Assembly (NCBI GenBank): GCA_021234155.1
Contig: JAJEKV010000129.1
Span: 1,281,963 to 1,345,962 of the forward strand
From: Isoetes taiwanensis
Lineage: Eukaryota > Streptophyta > Lycopodiopsida > Isoetales > Isoetaceae
Direction: 5' to 3'
DNA: 64,000 nucleotides
In this document: one piece after another, positions 43,146 to 56,995 of the stretch
How the letters are laid out: every line of letters starts with the position of its first letter
How positions within the stretch are numbered: position 1 is the first letter of the stretch
The notes under the pieces: generated by a model
The model's database searches: none
Told to the model about the DNA's origin: nothing
The model's input: only the letters and a program-made list of their open reading frames with translations
Translations under genes and position numbers: made by a program

Positions 43146-45482
43146 ACAAGTTTTTGTACTATGAGCGGTTGCACTATGAGGGACTGTACAAATTCGACTA
43201 GAAGCCAAATGCAATGCCATCCAACGAAGATCCTATAAAGATTCTCCAAGATTCTCCAAAGACTCTAGAAAAATTTCCCTAGATACTATGAGATTCCATC
43301 AATGTTCGCTTATATTCCCCAAGATTCGCAGATCATTCCTCGAGGAATTGTACAAATTCGAGTAGAAGTCAAATTTAAAGTCATGCGATGAAGATTCTAT
43401 AGAGATTCTCCAAGATTCCACCAAGATTCTCTAGATACTCAAAGATTTTATGAGGATTCCCTTAGATTCCTTTAGATTCTTAAAGATTCTCTTGAGATTC
43501 CCCTATATTCCCAAAGATTATCCTAAGATTCCTCAAGATTCCATGTAGATTCTTCAAGATTTTCTTAGATTCTATGAAGATCCCCCTATAGAACACACCT
43601 AGTGTCAAAGATTCCCCTACATCCCCTTGGATTCCCCCTAAATTCCCCAAAATTCCATAAACATCCCCTAGATTCTTAAGGTTCTACAAAGATTCCCCTA
43701 GATTTTCAAAGATTATCTGAAGATTCCTTTAGATTCCCTAAGATTCTATGTAGATTCTCCTAGATTCCCTTAGATTCTATCAAGATTCCACTACATTCTC
43801 TAAGATTCCATAAAGATTCCCCCTGATTCTCAAACATTTTTTGAAGATTCTCTTAGATTCCTCTATATTCGTTTGATTTCCATAGATTCGTTAAGATTCT
43901 CTTGACATTTCCCTAATTCCAAAGGTTATCCCAAGATTCCTCTAGATTCCTTTAGATTCTTAAATATTCTCTTGAAATTCCCTTAGATTCCCAAATATTA
44001 TCCTAAGATTCCTCTAGATTCTCCAAGATTCCATGTAGATTCTTCTAGATTCCCTTAGATTCTATGAAGATTCCCCGTAGAATGCACCCTCTTGTCCAAA
44101 GATTCCCTAGATCCCTTGAAATCTCCTGGCGATTCCCTAAGATTCCACAAAGATCCCCTAGATTCTTAAGGTTCTATAAAGATTCCCTAGATTTTCAAAG
44201 ATTATTTGAAGATTCGTTTAGATTCCCCAAGATTCTATGTAGATTCTTATAGATTCCCTTAAGTTCTATGAAGATCCCCTTAGATCTCTAAGATTCCATC
44301 GAGATTTCCCTCGATTCTTAAACTTTTTTGAAGGTTTTTTTAGATTCCCCTAGATTCCTTAAGATTCCCTTGAGATTCCTTTGATTTTCAAAGATTATCC
44401 CAATATCTCTCGAATTCCCTTAGATTCTATGAATATTCCCTCTAGATTATCCAACATTGCACGGAATGATGCCAAACCACTACTCATTGGAAAGCATTTG
44501 ATGAGAGGAATCCAAAGGTGTGGGTCCCACTTTGATCCGAGACCTCCACCACAAGATAAAGTCGTTTGAAGGCGGCGCAAAAAAGGAAGCTTCCAAGAAA
44601 GCTTCATAATTAATGAGTTGCCACCTCACTATCTTTTTATTAAATAAAGGGTGCCACCTCACCTCTTTAATATAAGAAATTCTAATTTAATAAAAAAATG
44701 AATGGTTAGGATTTATCCTCCCCCCTTTGATCTAACGGTTAAGATTGCTTGCACCAAATCCACTTTTAAGGAAGCTTCCTTGCACTTTCCTTATAAAAAT
44801 TAAGGGCCATGATTTCTCCTTCCCTTTTGATCTGACGGCTTAAAGACATGGTGCATGCCCCTATGCATGCCCCCCATCATATTTCTATGCCTATGCATGA
44901 CCTCTCCCATGAGGTGGCGGCATCATGGCCTTCCATTTCCAATTGGACGGCTGGCATTAATCTCTATATAGCATGGGTACATCCTTTCCGGGGACACATA
45001 GAATAGTTTTATATAGGTGTGGGTCCCACTTTGATCCGAGACCTCCACCACAAGATAAAGTCGTTTGAAGGCGGCGCAAAAAAGGAAGCTTCCAAGAAAG
45101 CTTCATAATTAATGAGTTGCCACCTCACTATCTTTTTATTAAATAAAGGGTGCCACCTCACCTCTTTAATATAAGAAATTCTAATTTAATAAAAAAATGA
45201 ATGGTTAGGATTTATCCTCCCCCCTTTGATCTAACGGTTAAGATTGCTTGCACTAAATCCACTTTTAAGGAAGCTTCCTTGCACTTTCCTTATAAAAATT
45301 AAGGGCCATGATTTCTCCTTCCCTTTTGATCTGACGGCTTAAAGACATGGTGCATGCCCCTATGCATGCCCCCCATCATATTTCTCCCATGAGGTGGCGG
45401 CATCATGGCCTTCCATTTCCAATTGGACGGCTGGCATTAATCTCTATATAGCATGGGTACATCCTTTCCGGGGACACATAGA
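43146..45482 (-). mobile_element. X element copy 3
   Basis: Left end ACAAGTTTTTGTACTATGAG at 43146; 43220-44450 is a degenerate AGATTCC array; then a ~480-base 5' module. That module is tandemly duplicated: 44516-45014 and 45015-45482 differ by one base and one 19-base deletion. The right end CACATAGA (45475-45482) is the complement of TCTATGTG. Confidence 0.7.
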
Positions 45483-45559
45483 ATAGTTTTATATATATAA
45501 TGATATATATATACAAGTATTTGTACTATGAGGGGGTATATGAAGTTGACTGAAAGCTA

Positions 45560-47090
45560 CAACAAAGAAACCAAAGCCGGAGTTGTACTCGCAGCGAATA
45601 CCTGCTCAAACTCCGAGTCTGTTGGCTCCATTTTTGTCAAACCTCTAGGTCAAACTCTTAACTAGAATGCTGATCAAAGTACTGTCAACTCTCCCTACAG
45701 GAATTTGTCGTAGTTTCCTTCTAGATGTTATCATCAAGGATATTTTATTAACATTTATGAAACTTATGTATAATGATTTCCCGTGTACTTTATTTCATCC
45801 AAACCCTAGAAAGGCAATAATATATGGCCATTGGCTATTGACATATAAATCATATTTCAATAGATAGATAAACAAAGAAATACTATGGAACGGAACTATA
45901 CATAATGCAACTCTGGGTCATTTTGAACTCGAGACATTAGCTAGTGTGTAAGATTAGACTCTGGGACAAATGAGTCTTGGACCTAAGATCCACATGAAGA
46001 TAATAATAAGCTTTCTTTGTTGTATGGCCATTTTGGCCAACAAATTTGGGGGATAATAGCATCTGATTTCCTCTAGCATGTCCGTGTTTATTTCTTATAT
46101 TACATAAAAGTTCTCGTTAAATTGCTCAATATCGGGTTTCACTAAAATAGTCATCATCTACATTTTCAATCTACCCTTAACACTAAAGAGTCAACACTTC
46201 AGAACCTTGAAACCCTAAATATGTTAATCAATTGAACATTTCTTTACAGGAAAATGTTGTTCCTTTTTTAGGACAATGATAACCCAATTTATTCAAAAAA
46301 AAGTTCAATCCATTTGCTAAAATATTGGTGTTGACATTATTAGTGCTGGAAAATCAAAATGAAAAGTCGCATTACACAAGTCTGCTATGAGAGGCTTATA
46401 GTGACATAATCTTTATTGGACGATGCATGTAAGCCTTTCTTTCTTTCTTTCCATTTAGTATAGGTTATAGTTTTGGGCTTTTAAGTTGTGCAATAGTAAT
46501 TCGAACTATTGCCCTTCTTTTGTGTTTTGCAATTTAAAAATTGAAATCGTATTGTAATAGTTATTAAGGTGTTATTTCAAAGGAAGTGCCATTTGGCCGT
46601 GGTATTTCTTGCACGTTGGTCAAGTGATGCTTAGGCATCTAGACAACATTATTTTGCCCCGGCATTTGCTTGAATCTTGCTCTAAATTGAACAGGTGCAA
46701 TTTGCATATGTCAATAGTGTGCATCCCTAAAGTTGGCATATTATGAGTTGTATTTTCATCCCTCTAGTGGGTATGTTATGAGCTCTTTTAAAGTTGTTTG
46801 CGTGATCTATTTATGGGAATTGTGCAGTAATGGTGATTTTTTAAAAAACAAATGAGGGGTAAAACTATAAACACTTGTTCCTATGACATTCTCAGCAAAC
46901 ATTAATGCTTTTTTGAGCCTTTACCCCTATTCTTTTTGCAAACTGCCATCCCATGGGAACCACTGGAATGGATCTTAACTTTTCTGTCTATGAATAAAGA
47001 GTTTGAATGCACATGCTCACCCTTGTGCAAACGATGCTAAGCAAACGATGCGTACAGAATCTCTAGAAAAAATGAACAGTTTAAATTGCA
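45560..47090. other. No gene recognised
   Basis: AT-rich DNA with short frames on both strands, none with a domain or clear splice sites. Confidence 0.4.
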
Positions 47091-47097
47091 AGGTAAC

Positions 47098-47200
47098 CTT
47101 CAATTGTTTGGTTTGCTCCGTAGCTCTAGCAACCTTCCTTAAAGCACAGCTTTCACTCATTTCCAGCTCACTACATTTCGTCATGAGCTCCTTGTAGGTT
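47098..47200 (-). pseudogene. Coiled-coil exon, unrecognised gene
   Basis: Intact AG and GT sites frame 34 codons plus one base, TYKELMTKCSELEMSES then CALRKVARATEQTKQLK, with heptad-like spacing of L/M residues. Possibly from the same source gene as 51284-51531, from which it is separated by unrelated exons. Confidence 0.4.
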
Positions 47201-47429
47201 CTACAAAACACGACCAAAAACATATGTCTCCTTGTAAGTCCTACAGAGGTAGAATAATCAAAGAAAGATTACCATAAGTCACGTATAAGCAGAGTAAACA
47301 GTAATACTTTTAGTTCATTTCGCATGATTGTGACCTCCCAAGTTTGAGGAACTTCCACTTCAAAGCATGAACCACAGTAAAGCAACATGTCCTGAATGCT
47401 AATAACATATTGCAACTAGAAATGACCAC

Positions 47430-47587
47430 CTGGTCCAGTTGGCTCATTCAAAAATAGCAATCCCTGAGAAATCGAATAAAAGCGGAGGAAAGAAGGTGGT
47501 CCATATAGCTTCTTTTTCTCAAGATTAAAGTAATGTCTATGAAAACCAGTTGGGTCTATGACACCAATTATTATAGCATTTGTAAAG
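47430..47587 (-). pseudogene. Exon-like piece, unrecognised
   Basis: After a CCCCTAG acceptor the frame reads FTNAIIIGVIDPTGFHRHYF. Protein-like, family unknown, donor unclear. Confidence 0.25.
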
Positions 47588-47851
47588 CTAGGGGCACATT
47601 GCAATAGAGATAGAAGCAAATTGCAGCATTGACAATTAGTCTCTGTTTTCTGGCTGCTGGTTCAAAGAATGACTGATGCCATTGCCGGTCTTGTTCTCCC
47701 CTTTTAAAGCACTATTTAAGTTTCTTCTCACAGACATTTCTTAAAGTAAGAATTTATTTCTATCTTCTTGATTCCAGCAAATCAAAAAAAAAAAAGTGCA
47801 TGTTTCATAATTTCTACAAATACATTATGATGGGAAACGCAATTGACTAAC

Positions 47852-48025
47852 CAAATGTTCACTAATCTGATATGCAACAGTAGCCCATTCAGCATTAACT
47901 TTTCTGGAGTGACCTCCAATACTGATCTTTCCTGAGCTTATTGCACTCCTTGAACTTGGAGCGGGATCTTTAAAACATGAAAGCATCTCTAACAACCACG
48001 CATGATGTTCCTTCAGGTCATTATC
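47852..48025 (-). pseudogene. 58-codon exon, unrecognised gene
   Basis: Flanked by AG and GTTAGT, phase 0 at both ends, no stop. It includes LKEHHAWLLEMLSCFKDP and VNAEWATVAYQISEHL. It looks like genuine coding sequence under constraint at its source. I do not recognise the family. Confidence 0.45.
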
Positions 48026-48888
48026 CTACATACAGAAAGTCCACTTTATTTAACGAATATGGTTAAGCAAACAATAAGAATACACTTCAACAATGTTTAT
48101 GTAAGGTAAATCGTGGGCCTAGTATGAAAACGACAGCCAGGGGGCATGCCGGCCCCAGAGATGATGATGCTTGAGAGATGATACCATCTCTTCTTCCTAT
48201 TGGAACATCCCAATGAGGACCACTCCACCATAACTATGCCCCGCGGCTTATCATTGAATGTATACACAGAGACCATGATCACAGAAAGTATCACCTGCAC
48301 ATTTTTGCTAAAGGATAAGCTCCTATGCTGCAACAGTAACCTATTGTGCATCATTGGAAAATTGCAAAGTTCATGCCATCTTTACTATAACCTGCTGTAA
48401 AGAAAATTAAGCAAGATAACAATTGAGCTCTTGCTTATTTTTACAATACCATTTCTTCATGCATCAGATTGATAAATGGAAGTGTAGTCTATGATGGATC
48501 GAAATGCCATATCGCCCATTTCATTACTTTTCCTGTGCAAAGATCTAACACATCCACAGACAAGTCACAAAACTTAACACTTTAAACCATAGAGACTCTT
48601 TTTGAGTTTACATAGTAAGTTCTCTGCCCCTGTTTATCAGATCCAGGAGGCTGTTATGTGTACAGCTACTCATGAAGTTTGAATGCTTGGGGAGAGTTCT
48701 TATTTATCATTGCTCTTCTTTCAAGACAACTACCAAACAGTACAGAGCACTTTTCCATTCTTATTATAAATAGCAACTGCTATTTCTTACCATAACATCA
48801 AGTCATAATTATTGCTCATATCCTTATGGACAGAGGAACTTGTCCATATAAAAAAAAGAATCTTTTTTAACCTTTTAATCTAGTTAAC

Positions 48889-49768
48889 CATTAATAACAA
48901 CTCTGTAACCTTCACTAAGGCCTTCCTGCTTAGCAACTACAGCTGTGGTATAAAGAATATGGCCAAGGATATCTTTGTGCCTTTCCTCTGCCTGGACATT
49001 TGCCAAATGGCTCTTAGTTCATTATCATGGCAGGAAACAAAGGGCCTCTAATGGCCTCAAACAAGCGGCTTAATTTTGACACATATGTTAAACCTTAAGT
49101 TTGACATTGTAACTGTGGAAATGCAGAGAACATACAGATATCCTTGTCATCATTTTCCAAATGCTTTAATGATTATCATATGCAAATGATCTCTATTGTA
49201 AGCATGGTGCATGAGAAGTTCCTCTAGATGCTTGTACTATGTTTCCGAGGACCCAAAAACGTACCTTTGAAAGCTGTGTCAGTCCATCTCTATGTTTAGG
49301 GATCAAAATGATGTGCGTTGGAGCCTGAGGTGAAATGTCCCTGAAGGCCAAAACCTGCCAAAAAAAATTTAAGGACGGTCCCAAAGCTCAAGAAACCAGC
49401 AAGAATTGGATTGCTACCCATAAATCATCATTTAATACTGCAAGTTACATTGCACCAAAAGAAGCCAGCTTATACTTTGCAATGTCATTGAGGATCAAAC
49501 CCCCGTTTAAACTAAACTAAATCTAAATCAGTATAGTTATTTCTTAAATGGACAGCAAGATGGAACATCTGATCACGAATTGGGCGCACCTTTTCATCTT
49601 CATAGACTACTTTGGATGGAATTTCCTTGGAAATAATCTTATCAAAACTGTAGATTTTGGAGAAGGTAAAAAAAATGAGGATGCCAATGATAGAAAAGGG
49701 AAACGCAAAGGGGAGAAAACCCACATGGTAGAGGCCCCAGTGTCTTTAATAATGGCAGCGGCATGCAT
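48889..49768 (-). pseudogene. HINT-type HIT protein gene, exons 1-4 intact, last exon decayed
   Basis: HINT proteins are HIT-superfamily purine nucleoside phosphoramidases. Minus-strand exons: 49725-49768 (ATG at 49768, in-frame stop just upstream), 49590-49647, 49265-49354, 48889-48991. Phases match exactly, giving MHAAAIIKDTGAST, IFDKIISKEIPSKVVYEDEK, VLAFRDISPQAPTHIILIPK with HRDGLTQLSK, then AEERHKDILGHILYTTAVVA and EGLSEGYRVVIN. The last exon should hold the catalytic HxHxH motif. The only candidate, about 48130-48200, reads WYHLSSIIISGAGMPPG in one frame and HHHLWGR in another, so the triad appears destroyed by indels. Either a decayed copy or its true last exon was missed. Spliced structure rules out simple retroposition. 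Confidence 0.8.
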
Positions 49769-50284
49769 AAAGCCTGCTCATCAGCAGCCATCGCCAAAGA
49801 CCTGATTTGGTTCCCGATTATTCCCAGCCTCCTTCCTGCTTGCAATACCATTCTTCCTCTGTCATAAATTAAGGTCGAAAATCTTTAAAAATTCCTGTTC
49901 TCTTGTCCTAAATTATCCAGGATTGCTGCCGTGTATCTATTTGGGCATGTTGCACATAGATCCGACAGCTCCTCACAACCTGCAGATCTTTAGAGGTCTA
50001 GACAGAATGATCCTTCTTAGGTTAGCAGAAAATGAAGCAAGAAAAACCCACGACTCGGTCTGTTGGGAAATGAGCCAAATGCCGGATCGCAGAAGGAGCT
50101 GCACCATTCCCGAAAGCAATAAAAGAATGCTTGTACACAGCAGATATTTGTGTACAAAGGGGCGGAAGAAAGGGCCGAAACCTAGGTTAAAAACTAGATC
50201 TGTGTTGACACTTCACATCGACCTAAGCAGATGTGCTAGATCTTCATAGCATCAGTCGGACTTGTGGAATGCCACCACTAAAAT

Positions 50285-50790
50285 CAGACAAAACAAAGAT
50301 CAATTATGTGTTCCGTTGCTTTTTGCAATGCCGCGACATGCTTGTAAGCGCACAGGCTAGCAGTTTCATTTGTCCGCTCTAAAAGACTCGTAGCACCATC
50401 TCCATATTTGGCCCTGGATATGTAGAAGAGTCCAACAAATTGAGACCTTATGAAATGGATATTCTAAGCATTTATGATGCTTTATTATGAACATAAGAAG
50501 CAAGTCTAAACCTGGCATAAATTTGACGACCATTTTCATCTATTTCATCTATAGGTGGTCGTGTGATTAATATAATTTGAGATGAGCCTGGCAGCCTCTG
50601 TCACACAAAATTTCTAAGCTTGTTTGCCAGAATTTTCTAAAAAACATATTTCTGCTTCAAATACAATTTGAGAAAGATTGCTCTTGTATTCAGAGATTGG
50701 AACATGCTGGCGTGCATTTGACCTATCTGGAAGGGCACAATCATTTGCTCCAAAAAACACAGTCATCAAAGATATAGGTTTTGATGATGT
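50285..50790 (-). pseudogene. GDSL esterase fragment, IAH1/CPRD49-like
   Basis: Three exons read on the minus strand. 50665-50790 (42 codons) contains [20 protein letters not shown] and [11 protein letters not shown], the family's conserved GAND block (oxyanion-hole Asn). 50512-50597 contains QIILITRPPIDEIDENGRQ, where family members have LITPPPxDE. About 50285-50395 contains ERTNETASLCAYKHVAALQ and then a stop where the family continues with the DLWxK region. The N-terminal exon with the nucleophile GDS and the C-terminal DGxHL exon were not found. It is a partial, decaying copy between coiled-coil exons and HINT. Confidence 0.75.
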
Positions 50791-51283
50791 CTGACAAAAA
50801 GAACATTACCTAAATTCAGGGGCAACAATGATACGGGAAAATAACATAATAAGCAGAGGGAGATGTAGAATGTTACTATTCCCAAAAATATTGACAGTGC
50901 AAAAAGAATTCGGATCAAATTGCAGATGCAAGAACAATGCAGGATTTCAATTCAAGATTACGAGTAATAGATTAAAGTACAATTTGAAAAATGATTTAGA
51001 AGTTGATATTGAGGACACGTACCAAGGGAAAGACTTCATTCAGCAAGCAAAGTGCCCATCTCGTGTTGTATCCACTGTATCCTCGGAGAAGCACATCTGC
51101 CTGAACTTAGATAAGTTTACACTACAATTTTGCAGCCTGCATTGACTCTGAAAAATCTGGAAAAGTGTTCTGAGCGACTCACCTTACGGGCATAGGTATG
51201 AGCAAGGGCAGCTCCCAAAACTTAAAGTCGAAGCGAATGTAAACAGAGTAGAGACAAAACCCAAATCGCCCCCGACGTCATAC

Positions 51284-51531
51284 CTCTGCCATTGCATTCT
51301 TTAGTTTGCGCAGTGACTTGTCCCTATCTCCAATACATGTCGCAAGGTGCTCTTGTTCCAGTTTAAGATCTCCATTCATCGATTTCAATTGCATATCCAA
51401 TGTCACCTGAACATCAATGGGAAAAAAAGATATTATCTTTCTTTTGCACCTGATCACCGACCAGTGATGCTTATACATACTTTATCAGCAAGATATTGAT
51501 CCGAGTCAAGATTGTTGAGTTCATAATCTTC
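51284..51531 (-). pseudogene. Two coiled-coil exons, unrecognised gene
   Basis: Exons 51481-51531 (17 codons) and 51284-51406 (41 codons) have AG/GT sites, are both phase 0 and join without a stop: EDYELNNLDSDQYLADK then VTLDMQLKSMNGDLKLEQEH and LATCIGDRDKSLRKLKNAMAE. The second is a predicted coiled coil. Flagellar or cytoskeletal coiled-coil proteins are possible sources, but I cannot name one. Confidence 0.5.
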
Positions 51532-52682
51532 CTGCAATGGAAAAGATTATCAGTGCATATACATTGACAATTGCAAACGGCACCTGTTCGATAATGGAAC
51601 ACCTCAAGCCTACCTTCTTTCCCCACAATGACCAATGTTCTCTACCAAAAGCAGCACCTCCTGCTCGTTTGGAAAAGGCTTTAAGATTGGCCTCCATGCA
51701 ACACATTGTTCAAAAGAAAATAATTTAGTAACCTGGCCATCGACTAGAGAAAAATGCAAATATTCCATGTCCCAGGGTCAACAACATTCTTCCTTAGGTT
51801 ATTAAACATCTGTTAACATCTTTAGCAAAACCTACATGAAACTGAAGCAAGTTAACACGTGAACATCATATATTCATCTACACTCGCAACAATTGAATCA
51901 AACACTACAATTCTAGAACATATACACTCCTCAAATTTATCGATAGCAACCACAGTAGCAGCATATGATGGTGACAATAGCTTTAAAGTGAATGAGGCAA
52001 GACTCATCTAATGTGGAGCTATAGCAGAATGAAACATCAGTGGGCTTTCCTGTCTGTGGCATGCATTCCCCTTTAGTCTATCAGACATATCCAGACATTC
52101 CTCATGTGTGATGATGGTTAACTTACATAATATTATCAGAGACAAAGGGAACTAGATTGCATAAAGGAGGCGACTCACTTCAGTAGCCATCAAACATTAC
52201 TTGCATACAGCTTCGTGTTTGCCTGCTCTTTGCTTGACGGATAATAAACCAGTAATCGTACGACTTCAAGTTCAAGATGATTAACCACTTCACAAAGCAA
52301 CAGAAGCAAGTGCCTTGTCTGTAAGGATGAATTCCAATCATTCACACAGCATAGAAAACTAAGCAATAGTATACTTCATACATAGCAATTGACTACTTGT
52401 TAAATCAGGCTGTGCAGAAAGGTGTACCAACTGGAGTTGTACATTATAAGAAAGACAAAGGAGAACATACAAAGCTTGTCGGTTGCAGCTTTCTTCATCA
52501 ACCACTTTGTCTGCAAACAAAATGACAGGTCAAACAAACGGAAAGGAACCAGAGAAAAAAAGATGCAATTGCAAAAACTTCAGAAGAACAGACCTATAAT
52601 CATATGGAATCATCACAAGGACTCAACCAGCAAGAAAATTAAAAAACAAAAAGCCCACTCTATACTTTTGCAATGCATTGTT

Positions 52683-52950
52683 CCAGAATAGGATGGACAT
52701 TATAGAATTCAGATATGCACCTCTGTGTGTATACACAACACCTTTTGGATTAGTTGTTGTACCAGAGGTGTAGTTCAGAGAAATAGGCTGCAGCTCATTG
52801 CTGTAGCAACTAGAAAATGTTGGATCTCCTACCTCTAAGAGCTTCTCATAATCAATTATAGTGTCTGCTTCCGTAAAGTCAACATGGGCATTTCCTAAAT
52901 CAGCGATAACAACCAGAGCAGGCTTCCTCCTGCTCCATGTATATGATCTC
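52683..52950 (-). pseudogene. Acyl-activating enzyme (AMP-binding) exon fragment
   Basis: The minus strand reads RRKPALVVIADLGNAHVD, DYEKLLEVGDPTF, then LNYTSGTTTNPKGVVYTHRG and AYLNS. The SGTTTNPKG block is the ATP/AMP-binding P-loop-like motif of the acyl-CoA synthetase superfamily, and HRGAY after it points to the plant acyl-activating enzyme (AAE1/AAE7-like) clade. The YEKLLEVGDPTF segment before it is also typical. After AYLNS similarity fades within about nine residues and no PMFHCNGW exon follows. No other AAE exon was found, so it is an isolated fragment. Confidence 0.85.
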
Positions 52951-52999
52951 TACAACAAATGATGCCAAAAACCCTGAGTTCTTTCAGCATGCCAACATA

Positions 53000-54480
53000 C
53001 ATAAAATAAAAAAAGAAGCTTACCACAATGGTTTACAAATCATGGCTGTATGTGGTGCAGATACAAAAATTTAGAAGACAAACTCTTTGTTCTTCAAATG
53101 AACCAGAATGGAAAAACTGCGAGAACTCTAGTGATATTCTACTATATGAGCTTCATCTTTATTATCGACTGTCTGTATACTGCAACCTGTCAATTGTTCA
53201 CAGTTATTGCTTGTCTACCCACTTATTCCCAGAGAATAGATAATATCGGCGCCGCAGTGGTCTGGCTTAAATTCTGCTAGCATAACATGTGTAGTGTGCA
53301 GATTTTGTTGCCTTTGCACAGGAAACTTGCTTTTATGGGGTTGCTTGCTTTTAAGGAACATTCAGTGGGGCGCATGGCAATATGCATGTTGCTTATACCG
53401 CAATATTTATGCATGCCACAGCTTCAACATTTGACCTTGCTATAATAAAGTTGAGACCGCATATCCTGCTGCAAAAAATCAAACAGGAACATCTGCAAGC
53501 CATTCACCTATTTCTCTAAATTTGGAGCACCGTCTCCATGGATTTGATCTAATGGGATTTGTATTTCCAGATTCGATTTCAGAAGTATTGCATGCCAAAC
53601 TAACAGGGAAACTCGAGTTCCAAGGGCATGTCATAGAACCATTGACAGATCAATAAAGGATATGGAATCTACACACAATGTAACTAATGACTATGAAATA
53701 TGGACACACACAATATCTGGGGAAGTGCAACTTTCTGGAATAAACCTGAACCAGCCTTTTAAACACATCAATTCACGGGATTATTGTAGCTATTGAATCG
53801 ATAAATAAGAAAAAGAAGCTTACCAATTGGGGTCGCTGTGAATGACATCCGGCTTCTACAGATTCAAAGCTCCAAAAGCTTAACCGGCAACTCAAAATCG
53901 TAGCTCGTTCCTGCAAGCGCAAATCTACAGATTCTTCTGCCCTAGTGGCGGTAGAAGATAATATTCTTATCAGAAAGGCCGGACCGACCAAGTTGAGTTT
54001 CCCATACCATCATTTCCATTGTCAACTGGCGACGTTATGAGCAACATCGACAATCACAGTGGCGGCAGGAGCAGAGGATGGGGCTTTTTTTTATCACATT
54101 CCTACGGTAATCACCGATGATCTTTTATCCGAGTGTAGATCTTTAATACTTCAGTTATTAACCCTCTTGGCTCCTCTCTGGAGTTATTACTTGAGCCTCG
54201 AGTCTAACAAGGCAAGCACAAACATACAGAGCTCAACAAAGGACTCGAAGCTTGTCTTTAGGATCAACTGGCAATGTTTGTGCCCAAGATCTCCACAAAA
54301 TCCTGCCTTTGCGGGGTTCAGATTGAAACCTAGGCCATGCCCACAATCCCATCGCCATTCCAAAACTCCGAGGAGAGTACCCCCGAATGCACAGAAAAGT
54401 GAAGAGCAAAATTCGAGCGCGCCATTCTGCCGGAGTTCCGCCGTTGTCGTCAATAGGGAGAAACATAAAAGTGAAGAGCA
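53000..54480. other. No confident gene
   Basis: A minus-strand frame ending at a GTAAGC donor near 53815 could be a first exon but lacks an ATG. Overlapping frames at 54059-54727 (+) and 54187-54481 (-) have no domain and run into Z-type repeats. Confidence 0.35.
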
Positions 54481-54489
54481 AAATTCGAC

Positions 54490-55066
54490 GGTCTATATTA
54501 AAAGCCCCAATTTAATTCCTCAAATCCGACGTCACATATCAAAAGCCCCAAATAAAGGGGGGTGCTGGGGTGATTCGAGGTGTCACCGTCCGCACCGTCC
54601 ATCTCTGATGGACGGCCGTGATCAATCTCTACCAAATGTTAATTGTATATATATCCTTTGGATGATTTTTAATTTAATGTGCATTGCCACCTCACGAAGG
54701 TGGACATTAAATTTCTTTGCCCATTAAATTTCCTTGACTTTTAAATCAAGGGAAGAGATTAGAAGCCCCAATTCCAATGATCTGGATTAAAAGCCCCAAT
54801 TCTATCACCTTCCCTGCAACTTCCTATCCAAAATTGACGGCCAAGATTTGACCTTCCCTTTTAATCCGACGGCCCATATGAAAAGCCCCAAATAATTTTA
54901 ATCGACGGTCTGGATAAAATGCCCCAATTTCGAGGGCCGAGATTAAAAGCCCCAAATAAGGGGGGATGCTTGGGGTGTTACGAGGTGGCACCGTCTCGGC
55001 CGTCCATCTCAGAGATGGACGGCCGAGATCAATCTCTACACCATCATCCAGACCTCCATATAATTG
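54490..55066 (-). repeat. Z-type terminal repeat module, duplicated
   Basis: Two Z ends: one finishing AATTG(TA)n at 54645, the second at 55066. Many AATCCGACGG and AAAAGCCCCAA words. TCTCGGCCGTCCATCT (54994-55009) and its perfect complement (55013-55028) make a 16-bp hairpin with a 3-base loop. Confidence 0.7.
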
Positions 55067-55088
55067 TATATATATAAGGATATATAAC

Positions 55089-56107
55089 GATTCCCAAATA
55101 TTATCCTAAGATTCCTCTAGATTCTCCAAGATTCCATGTAGATTCTTCTAGATTCCCTTAGATTCTATGAAGATTCCCCTGTAGAATGCACCTACTGTCA
55201 AAGATTCCCCTAGATCCCTTGAAATCTCCTGCGATTCCCTAAGATTCCACAAAGATCCCCCTAGATTCTTAAGGTTCTATAAAGATTCCCCTAGATTTTC
55301 AAAGATTATTTGAAGATTCGTTTAGATTCCCCAAGATTCTATGTAGATTCTTATAGATTCCCTTAAGTTCTATGAAGATCCCCTTAGATCTCTAAGATTC
55401 CATCGAGATTTCCCTCGATTCTTAAACTTTTTTGAAGGTTTTTTTTAGATTCCCCTAGATTCCTTAAGATTCCCTTGAGATTCCTTTGATTTTCAAAGAT
55501 TATCCCAATATCTCTCGAATTCCCTTAGATTCTATGAATATTTCCTCTAGATTATCCAACATTGCACGGAATGATGCCAAACCACTACTCATTGGAAAGC
55601 ATTTGATGAGAGGAATCCAAAGGTGTGGGTCCCACTTTGATTCGAGACCTCCACCACAAGATAAAGTCGTTTGAAGGCGGCGCAAAAAAGGAAGCTTCCA
55701 AGAAAGCTTCATAATTAATGAGTTGCCACCTCACTATCTTTTTATTAAATAAAGGGTGCCACCTCACCTCTTTAATATAAGAAATTCTAATTTAATAAAA
55801 AAATGAATGGTTAGGATTTATCCTCCCCCCTTTGATCTAACGGTTAAGATTGCTTGCACCAAATCCACTTTTAAGGAAGCTTCCTTGCACTTTCCTTATA
55901 AAAATTAAGGGCCATGATTTCTCCTTCCCTTTTGATCTGACGGCTTAAAGACATGGTGCATGCCCCTATGCATGCCCCCCATCATATTTCTATGCCTATG
56001 CATGACCTCTCCCATGAGGTGGCGGCATCATGGCCTTCCATTTCCAATTGGACGGCTGGCATTAATCTCTATATAGCATGGGTACATCCTTTCCGGGGAC
56101 ACATAGA
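55089..56107 (-). mobile_element. X element copy 4 (truncated)
   Basis: Nearly identical to 43989-45002 (part of copy 3, first module) with only scattered changes, e.g. GATTCGAG for GATCCGAG. It lacks the left end and most of the AGATTCC array. Ends ACATAGA at 56107, then TA-rich DNA and the next Y terminus. Confidence 0.75.
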
Positions 56108-56995
56108 ATAGTTTTATATATACAAGTCTTTGTACTATAAATGGGTCTATGAACCATGGTTTACGAAATCTGGGAACAAAATCCAAGATTAAGAGTGACA
56201 GAATGATAGCATGCATCCGGTCAAAGTCATGAAGTTTTTAAGCTAAACCCTTTTGCTTGATGGCCATTCAATCGAGCTCATCGTTGTTTATTAGATGGAG
56301 ACTTGCAATTAGATTTCATCTGATCACTCTACTATAACGAAGCAAACTTTGTCTATAATCCTATTGGGTACAGCTTTATTCGAGGTGTCTTTGGCTAAGC
56401 GAAATTAAATTGCATCTCCTCTAACAATGAGCATAGATATTTGGTAAACAGTCTACATGCATCCACACACGCCATTGATAAGCAAACTCGATAAATATTT
56501 TGTTCCCCGCTATGAACTTCATTTATTGTCTTATTCTTGATGCGTATCCAATTTTATTCGAGAGGCAAATTCAACAATCGTACCAAATGTACAAACAAAA
56601 AGCTTGTCCTTGACTCTGGGTGAATTAGTTTTGGCTTTCTCAGAACACTCGATGATAGACATTTCTGTATAGTTATACACTATTCGTAGTTGGAAGGTGC
56701 ATTTTGTACTATAAATGTGTCCATGAACTATACGAACATCTGGGAATAAAATCCTCTACCTATATTAACATGCGTTGTAAGGCCCCAGAATATCATGCCT
56801 TACAATTTTGACAATGCTCTAATCCTTGCTTTATGATTACTCTACCATTGGGTCTTCTCAACCAATTCCCTTCGCCATTATGCTTTTGATACCTCAAGCT
56901 CTTCCATATACCGACAATTCAATCCTCCCATCATCTACCATGTCATGTTCATCTTAAGATGGCGGTCCCATTATACATGCTCTTAATACACTCTT

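Follow-up and report, generated by a model that had tools for sequence, protein, structure and literature searches.

A stretch of 64,000 nucleotides from Isoetes taiwanensis, here called the window, raises the question of how exons of several unrelated genes came to lie together on one strand. The initial annotation had placed exons of at least four such genes within one candidate element at 45513-55066. The results showed that this region is a repeat unit of 9.6 kb, which is present at nine further places in the same 1.66-Gb genome. On the minus strand, the unit extends from 55080 to 45514, and these limits, defined from its other copies, differ by at most 14 bases from those proposed before. 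They are common to the copies in C911, C1037, and C1048 and to the 5' part of the copy in C1044, and enclose a long form of 9,567 bp (45514-55080). The 5' end at 55080 is TCCTTATATATATACAATTATATGG, and the 3' end at 45514 is CATAGTACAAATACTTG, followed by a TA run. Because both ends sit in TA runs, the borders cannot be placed with single-base precision, and the exact terminal bases are uncertain. We believe that the unit is probably a mobile element with unusual ends, which carries parts of at least six unrelated plant genes with their introns.

Within the unit, sharp-edged blocks match separate loci elsewhere in the genome, and all of them are described here on the minus strand, where the exons listed earlier were indeed found. 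The block at 53252-53932 contains no recognised gene and has donor-like loci in C1100, C907, and C80 (95.6% identity over 687 positions to C1100). It is followed by an exon fragment of an AMP-binding (acyl-activating) enzyme at 52679-52934, with 98.4% identity over 256 bp to C1076, where the donor has an open frame of 500 aa with PF00501 and PF13193. A fragment of a first coiled-coil gene with intron sequence (51293-51576) matches C949 with 90.9% identity over 287 positions, and in the protein comparison with 88% of amino acids in a frame of 109 aa. A bridge sequence (51217-51292) is attached to a GDSL esterase fragment with introns (50294-51216), which shows 92.3% identity over 949 positions to C1032 at 12.661 Mb. 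The GDSL fragment starts inside donor exon 1, at the end of that exon, and stops inside exon 5 of six; the donor exons give PF13472 and PF00657. The GDSL exons recognised in the initial annotation are therefore present, and their number is not three, since parts of five exons lie in the window.

The HINT gene (48353-49844) begins near the start codon and runs roughly 0.5 kb beyond the stop codon, and its donor is located in C1032 at 10.595 Mb. The part at 49844-48889 is 97.4% identical to it over 961 positions including introns, and PF01230 was found both in the donor and in window exons 1-4. The window copy has lost 141 bp near 48889, a deletion that covers exon 5, intron 4, and the last part of exon 4. 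The exon-5 stretch of approximately 140 bp is kept in the other nine copies (eight were read, and that in C1048 was deduced from the match gap). The description of HINT as exons 1-4 fits the window and not the other copies; at its capture HINT was essentially whole, with all five exons, and exon 5 was lost in the window copy only. The HINT-like sequences in C941 and C955 were set aside as parents, with a DNA identity of 63-82%. Next to HINT lie a short repeated fragment (48221-48353) that matches C1038 and others with 92% identity over 132 bp, and a peroxidase exon fragment (48162-48223) that is 96.8% identical over 62 bp to C1054, a locus with PF00141 matches in its frames. The block at 47580-47985 has 93.4% identity over 407 positions to a place in C1018 that does not have the appearance of an intact gene; its one exon-like frame has no Pfam match at E<=1. 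The last block (47048-47230) is an exon of a second coiled-coil gene with intron edges, 95.1% identical over 183 bp to C1018 at 36.512 Mb.

With the peroxidase added, six gene fragments are recognised, and all six are in sense with the element, as the claim of a shared orientation had stated. The parents of HINT, GDSL, and AMP-binding fragments are apparently intact, and the other donor-type loci, among them those on C949, C1018, and C1054, are partial. Ordinary neighbouring genes were ruled out, as the donors are spread over other scaffolds or separated by 2 Mb and are not contiguous with one another. The two refuting conditions set out in the initial annotation, a lack of parental copies or a contiguous set of the missing exons, were thus not borne out. 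A single coiled-coil gene surrounding GDSL and HINT was also ruled out, because the coiled-coil exons come from two donors (C949 and C1018); the earlier argument from their position was wrong in this detail. Introns are present in the GDSL and HINT donor matches, so capture occurred at the DNA level, as had been proposed. Two donors abut exactly at 51293/51292, between the first coiled coil and the bridge-GDSL block. The same join of bridge and GDSL exists in C1045, C1049, and C140, where the match starts at 51292 or 51291, and the apparently intact GDSL gene of C1032 matches only from 51216.

The ten copies with the cassette are those in the window, C911, C1037, C1044, C1048, C1075, C171, C934, C952, and C1078. 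They are mostly 90-98% identical to the window copy (81-91% for C1078). An assembly mosaic, or a non-mobile tandem or segmental duplication that holds fragments of several genes by chance, is highly improbable. The genome is a nanopore assembly with gap filling according to the part of PMC8566536 consulted, and copies other than that of the window contain many 1-2 bp indels, which would suit an artefact. Against it, the joins recur at ten places that have common ends, the 5' flanks differ (a weak 60-bp match in only 1 of 45 flank pairs), and the end motif exists in hundreds more copies in the genome. The copies also share fixed differences from the donors, namely 30 of 1599 columns in HINT (10 copies), 18 of 920 in GDSL (9 copies), 4 of 256 in AMP-binding (7 copies), and 5 of 234 in the first coiled coil (9 copies). 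Such common differences are consistent with each block having been captured once, prior to amplification.

Besides the long form, the copies in C1075, C171, C934, C952, and C1078 represent a short form. Their true 5' end corresponds to an older internal 5' end of the long form, a pseudo-terminus at 54485-54654 on the minus strand, which is 75.5% identical to 55039-54902. On the other side, the match of the short forms ends at 48225 in C1075, C171, and C934, and at 48221 in C1078; the start of the peroxidase fragment is the point where the two forms diverge. The sequence tree is star-like, does not separate long and short forms, and gives no order of the two. The segment 53812-52621 is absent in C171, C934, and C1078, which are not grouped in the tree. 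This absence is probably a loss, because the captured block 53932-53252 spans 53812. The non-window copies have 0.20-0.36 indels per substitution, mostly of 1-2 bp, compared with 0-0.15 for most donor loci and 0.22 for the HINT donor in C1032. This excess may reflect unpolished long-read sequence, and dating of the copies was given up for this reason; the aged look of C1078 (17% substitutions) may have the same origin.

The captured exons could also be read as a young chimeric gene, spliced into one transcript under selection. The exons have one orientation, and the window copy, in which GDSL exons 2-4 and the AMP-binding fragment retain open frames, is not riddled with stops. Against this, the donor boundaries run through exons, HINT exon 5 is lost in the window, and in-frame stops occur in 5 of the 6 other copies with an AMP-binding match, of which some may be sequence errors. 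Stops from joined-exon queries were left out of this evidence because even the hits in the window contain such stops where the exons had been joined. We consider a young gene very unlikely; the captured exons are probably passengers without gene function.

The termini bear on the type of transposon. The 5' terminal block (54640-55080, minus strand) is high-copy in the genome at 93-98% identity, and 22 further places match most of query positions 1-420. The 5' end shows TC after a TA run in the window, C1075, C934, C171, and C952, as well as in L016, L017, and Y in C1037, which belong to the same family; the long-form copies in C911, C1037, C1044, and C1048 lack the TC part and begin within the TA run. 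Two stacked hairpins (-12.4 kcal/mol) form at the short-form 5' end, and they were obtained for three of five folded sequences (present in C1075, C952, and L016, absent in the window and the C934 neighbour). The 3' end is CTTG, instead of the CTRR of canonical Helitrons, wherever the end was read (window, C911, C1037, C1048, C1075, C171, C934, and C1078). Only a 5-bp TACAA/TTGTA stem stands there, or a 6-bp TTGTAC-type stem in C1075 and C171, and these stems of 5-6 bp are weak and AT-rich (-1.9 to -3.1 kcal/mol). Canonical Helitrons begin with TC and insert between A and T without a target duplication. The flanks here are TA-rich, with no target duplication beyond TA seen by eye. An empty site was sought for C1037 only and none was found; both of its flanks consist of the termini of other elements.

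A Pack-type TIR transposon, for example one with a TA target and very short asymmetric inverted ends, would have moved the fragments by cut-and-paste. By eye, the ends form a broken inverted repeat, 5' TATATACAA-TTA-TATGAG against 3' CTCATA-10 bp-TTGTATATA; a TA target duplication is indistinguishable from a TA-rich target, and neighbours in tail-to-tail order also occur (55 pattern matches, a number that includes some palindromes counted once per strand). Against it, a systematic search found no inverted repeat of at least 120 bp within the element, and the 5' and 3' ends are unlike beyond the terminal bases. No 9-11 bp duplication was seen by eye beside the window, C911, C1037, and C1048 copies, of which both flanks were read. 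Pack-MULEs have long terminal inverted repeats and a 9-11 bp target duplication, and they capture fragments of multiple genes with introns. The Isoetes element shares with them the captured fragments of several genes with introns and differs in that neither of these terminal features was seen. Between the two types first suggested, the Helitron-like one is favoured and Pack-MULE is not; a TIR transposon of any such kind is unlikely.

The neighbourhood of the element points to how the ends may have changed. The family 3' end CATAGTACAAANACTTGTATATA occurs 665 times in the genome, with 0 for the reversed-pattern control, in counts whose patterns require CTTG and are no test of CTTG versus CTRR. 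For 65 of the 665, a family 5' end follows in head-to-tail order within 30 bp (0 in the control). The window itself has a head-to-tail neighbour on the minus strand (43147-45500), whose X-type 5' ends lie close to 45500 and 45015 and whose 3' CTTG is near 43147. On the other side lies repeat X with a 31-bp minisatellite (55089-56125, minus strand), 98.8% identical to 43986-45015. An LTR reading of these direct repeats at 44-45 kb and 55-56 kb was rejected, as they are 5' parts of the neighbouring repeat X.

Overall, the region is likely a copy of a non-autonomous Helitron-like transposon of the rolling-circle type, in which DNA-level capture of at least six gene pieces in steps was followed by amplification. 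The 5' TC in some copies, the 5' hairpins, TA-rich targets, lack of duplication beyond TA or long inverted repeats, and head-to-tail arrays support this assignment. It is not classed as a canonical Helitron because of the CTTG end, the missing canonical 3' hairpin, and the absence of its ends at the nine Rep/Hel loci examined. Helitron_like_N is abundant in the genome (150 of 150 scored places over the cut-off, from 1,813 candidates). Downstream sequence was read at nine Rep/Hel loci (L045, L046+L063, L047, L048, and L058-L062), and none of it contained the family's ends; at L058, L059, and L062 the match is confined to the terminal TTGTATATA, lies on the other strand, and does not extend into the remainder of the end. 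Movement would depend on Rep/Hel-driven rolling-circle transfer with the machinery of another element, and capture could occur while DNA is transferred or a gap is repaired, through template switching or read-through. The gene pieces would have been acquired in several steps before the whole unit multiplied. The head-to-tail arrays hint at a way for ends to be exchanged, in which an element inserted beside a relative could adopt the end of that relative and take up new DNA in the process. This may be how the long form originated, because the short form's 5' end is kept inside it. More tentatively, and with a probability well below even, the family could be a separate rolling-circle lineage with TC...CTTG/TA-run ends, whose main capture route is array-based end-swapping and not read-through. 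Its members would insert beside each other's ends, and arrays would let a copy adopt the end of its neighbour.

Known systems offer several comparisons, here as far as the cited excerpts go. Canonical Helitrons have a G/C-rich hairpin of 15-20 bp about 10-12 bp before the 3' end (PMC4683698). Maize gene-capturing non-autonomous Helitrons end in CTAG, in contrast to the CTTG before a TA run here; they likewise combine several gene fragments from unlinked loci by stepwise gain and show internal sequence loss between copies and internal pseudo-termini, whereas the Isoetes element took HINT essentially complete with five exons (PMC3288121). Helitron2/Helentron elements similarly have short asymmetric inverted repeats (a likeness assigned by eye in Isoetes), hairpins near the 5' end, and non-CTRR ends, and tandem insertions are reported for Helitrons (PMC5148889). 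Hairpins at both termini mark that type, and in Isoetes the stems at the 3' end are weak; no Rep/Hel, endonuclease, or other coding partner with the Isoetes ends was found. The excerpt of PMC2575219 on maize and rice Helitrons holds nothing on fragment orientation. The word Helitron is absent from the main text of the I. taiwanensis genome paper (PMC8566536), and a full-text literature search for Helitron and Isoetes gave two papers, on bromeliads and on land-plant chromatin, judged by title and the start of the abstract.

Gene shuffling of this kind is already known from Helitron transposons, and it is the ends of the Isoetes element that are unusual. The locus provides a readable case of stepwise capture, with donors, intermediates (C1045, C1049, and C140, which already have the GDSL junction), and two element forms in one genome. 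It would extend heavy Helitron-like gene capture to an apparent lycophyte. For annotation, HINT-, GDSL-, and AMP-binding-like exons in the Isoetes genome should be treated with caution, as they may be transposon passengers.

The 9.6-kb stretch on the minus strand was identified as a repeat by DNA searches of the genome with the HINT part and the whole 9.6 kb as queries. The genome searched comprised 1,658,258,908 bases in 1,110 contigs, with the window at C940:1281963-1345962; an excerpt of the assembly paper gives 1658.30 Mb in 204 scaffolds and 909 contigs for Isoetes taiwanensis (PMC8566536). The cassette of captured blocks was present at nine further places (contigs C911, C1037, C1044, C1048, C1075, C171, C934, C952 and C1078), and the copy number is at least ten, as such searches score the best candidates only. 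The ten copies had differing 5' flanks: across 45 pairs, a single weak match of 60 bp was seen. The single candidate element proposed by the initial annotation was borne out as a repeat unit. Five of the ten copies were of a long form (window 55080-45514): those of the window, C911, C1037, C1044 and C1048. The C1044 match to the window ended at 46392, and the C911 copy was interrupted by approximately 14 kb of other DNA. The other five (C1075, C171, C934, C952 and C1078) were of a short form, which starts at the equivalent of window 54640 and is common to the window as far as about 48225, followed by a different 3' part; the C952 copy was common as far as 48542 and carried an internal deletion.

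The 3' ends of the element consist of CATAGTACAAANACTTG followed by a TA run. The exact pattern CATAGTACAAANACTTG plus TATATA occurred 665 times in the genome (control 0), and the family 5' end ACAATTATAT lay within 30 bp beyond 65 of these 3' ends (control 0), a lower bound because the pattern misses variants. The inverted end ATACAAGT was within 30 bp of 55 matches of the 3' pattern shortened by one base (control 0), a number that includes palindromic matches counted on both strands. Four of the five long copies (C911, C1037, C1044 and C1048) began right after another element's 3' end, the window copy began beside repeat X, and the four short copies followed to their ends (C1075, C171, C934 and C1078) ran into another 5' end. 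Folding predicted two hairpins at the short-form 5' end. Four copies of a neighbouring family that shares this end differed in the DNA past CTTGTATA, which was mostly TA-rich. In the window, one pattern located 3' ends at 56135, 45526, 43159, 32535 and 10523, all five on the minus strand. Directly upstream of the element, window 63555-56123 (minus strand) has the same end types (5' TCACTCATATATATACAATTATATTGG, 3' TTTATAGTACAAAGACTTG) and could represent a second such element. Repeat X, which contains a 31-bp minisatellite, flanks the element at 55089-56120 and 43986-45015 in direct orientation with 98.8% identity, and an extra copy of its 5' part lies at 45015-45500.

Each block was compared, as genomic sequence, with donor loci that protein or DNA searches had retrieved. 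At the HINT donor (C1032:10.595 Mb), open frames run through five exons, which, joined by eye, matched PF01230 with 97 bits; identity to the window was 97.4% over 961 positions, introns included, and the 3' part gave 87.7% over 554 positions. The GDSL donor (C1032:12.661 Mb; 92.3%) reads by eye as a gene of six exons whose frames are open; two stretches of it are missing from the window, namely the start of exon 1 (FVLFGDSITQ) and the final exon. The AMP-binding enzyme donor on C1076 was 98.4% identical; because its 500-aa open frame spans PF00501 profile positions 49-384, a first exon probably lies upstream. Apparently intact parental-type copies, whose exon and intron identity the initial annotation had proposed to check, were found for these three blocks. 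Coiled coils 1 and 2 were 90.9% and 95.1% identical to C949 and C1018, respectively; a Pfam search gave no significant family at either locus, so their label follows the initial annotation and our own reading of the sequence. The block of unknown identity was 95.6% identical to C1100, and the peroxidase fragment 96.8% over 62 bp to C1054, which matches PF00141. The last block (47985-47580) was 93.4% identical to C1018:5.89 Mb, which may itself be mosaic, since the adjoining frame resembles, by eye, a retrotransposon protein.

All element copies having a base at a column agreed against the donor at 30 of 1,599 columns in HINT (10 copies), 18 of 920 in GDSL (9 copies), 4 of 256 in AMP-binding (7 copies), 5 of 234 in coiled coil 1 (9 copies), 7 of 183 in coiled coil 2 (5 copies), 18 of 648 in the unknown block (10 copies, three holding at most about 120 bp of it) and 21 of 395 in the last block (5 copies). 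This agreement is consistent with each block having been captured once, before amplification. No AMP-binding match was obtained for C171, C934 and C1078, and none of the five short forms matched the last block or coiled coil 2; short-form matches to the window ended before the peroxidase fragment. In most blocks the window copy was the one nearest the donors, the remaining copies appearing more decayed; a 141-bp HINT deletion flanked by two TGGT words was found in the window copy alone (1/10). Many 1-2 bp indels were present in three extracted element copies (L010, L007 and L008), which may contain long-read sequence that was left unpolished when gaps were filled; this calls for caution in dating repeats in this assembly.

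The GDSL block probably came from an already chimeric source. The coiled coil 1 match stops at 51293, and matches to C1045, C1049 and C140 start at 51292 or 51291. These three share a bridge of 76 bp 5' of GDSL that is missing from the C1032 gene. Of the 18 GDSL sites separating all element copies from C1032, 8 have the element base in both C1045 and C1049. C140 lies in an element of a different family, Y, whose 5' end is of the same type and which carries a GDSL piece. The 3' 260 bp of family Y were 99-100% identical at eight places (the extracted locus L044, C140:152300-157900, and C1053, C1025, C356, C264, C579, C120 and C1037), several of these contigs also bear a matching GDSL exon, and the family looks recently active.

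The exons had been said to share the orientation of the element, and all six recognised gene fragments indeed did (two-sided sign test, 0.03). This orientation, the fragments with introns from several loci, the lack of long inverted repeats, the absence of any visible target duplication beyond TA and the tandem arrays suggest a Helitron-like element. Maize Helitrons likewise capture fragments step by step, lose internal sequence and contain internal pseudo-termini (PMC3288121). Rep/Hel sequence is abundant in the genome; in one example (locus L045:782-9673, C224:468781-477672), a 2,964-aa open frame has Helitron_like_N and PIF1 helicase domains, with no Pfam match at E ≤ 0.001 past residue ~1235. 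Because the element lacks CTRR and the G/C-rich 3' hairpin, and none of nine Rep/Hel loci read downstream carries its ends, we describe it as working like a gene-capturing Helitron and do not assign it to the class. Ends other than CTRR, with asymmetric inverted repeats, have been described in Helitron2 elements (PMC5148889), a type to which the ends of this element bear a resemblance that is no proof of membership.

Judged from sequence, the captured exons are most likely passengers, because donor boundaries cut through exons, the window HINT copy holds exons 1-4, as initially annotated, and has lost exon 5, and, of the six other copies that match the AMP-binding block, five contain in-frame stops. 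The frames of GDSL exons 2-4 and of the AMP-binding fragment are still open in the window, which counts against the passenger reading, yet is as expected of a copy near the ancestor.
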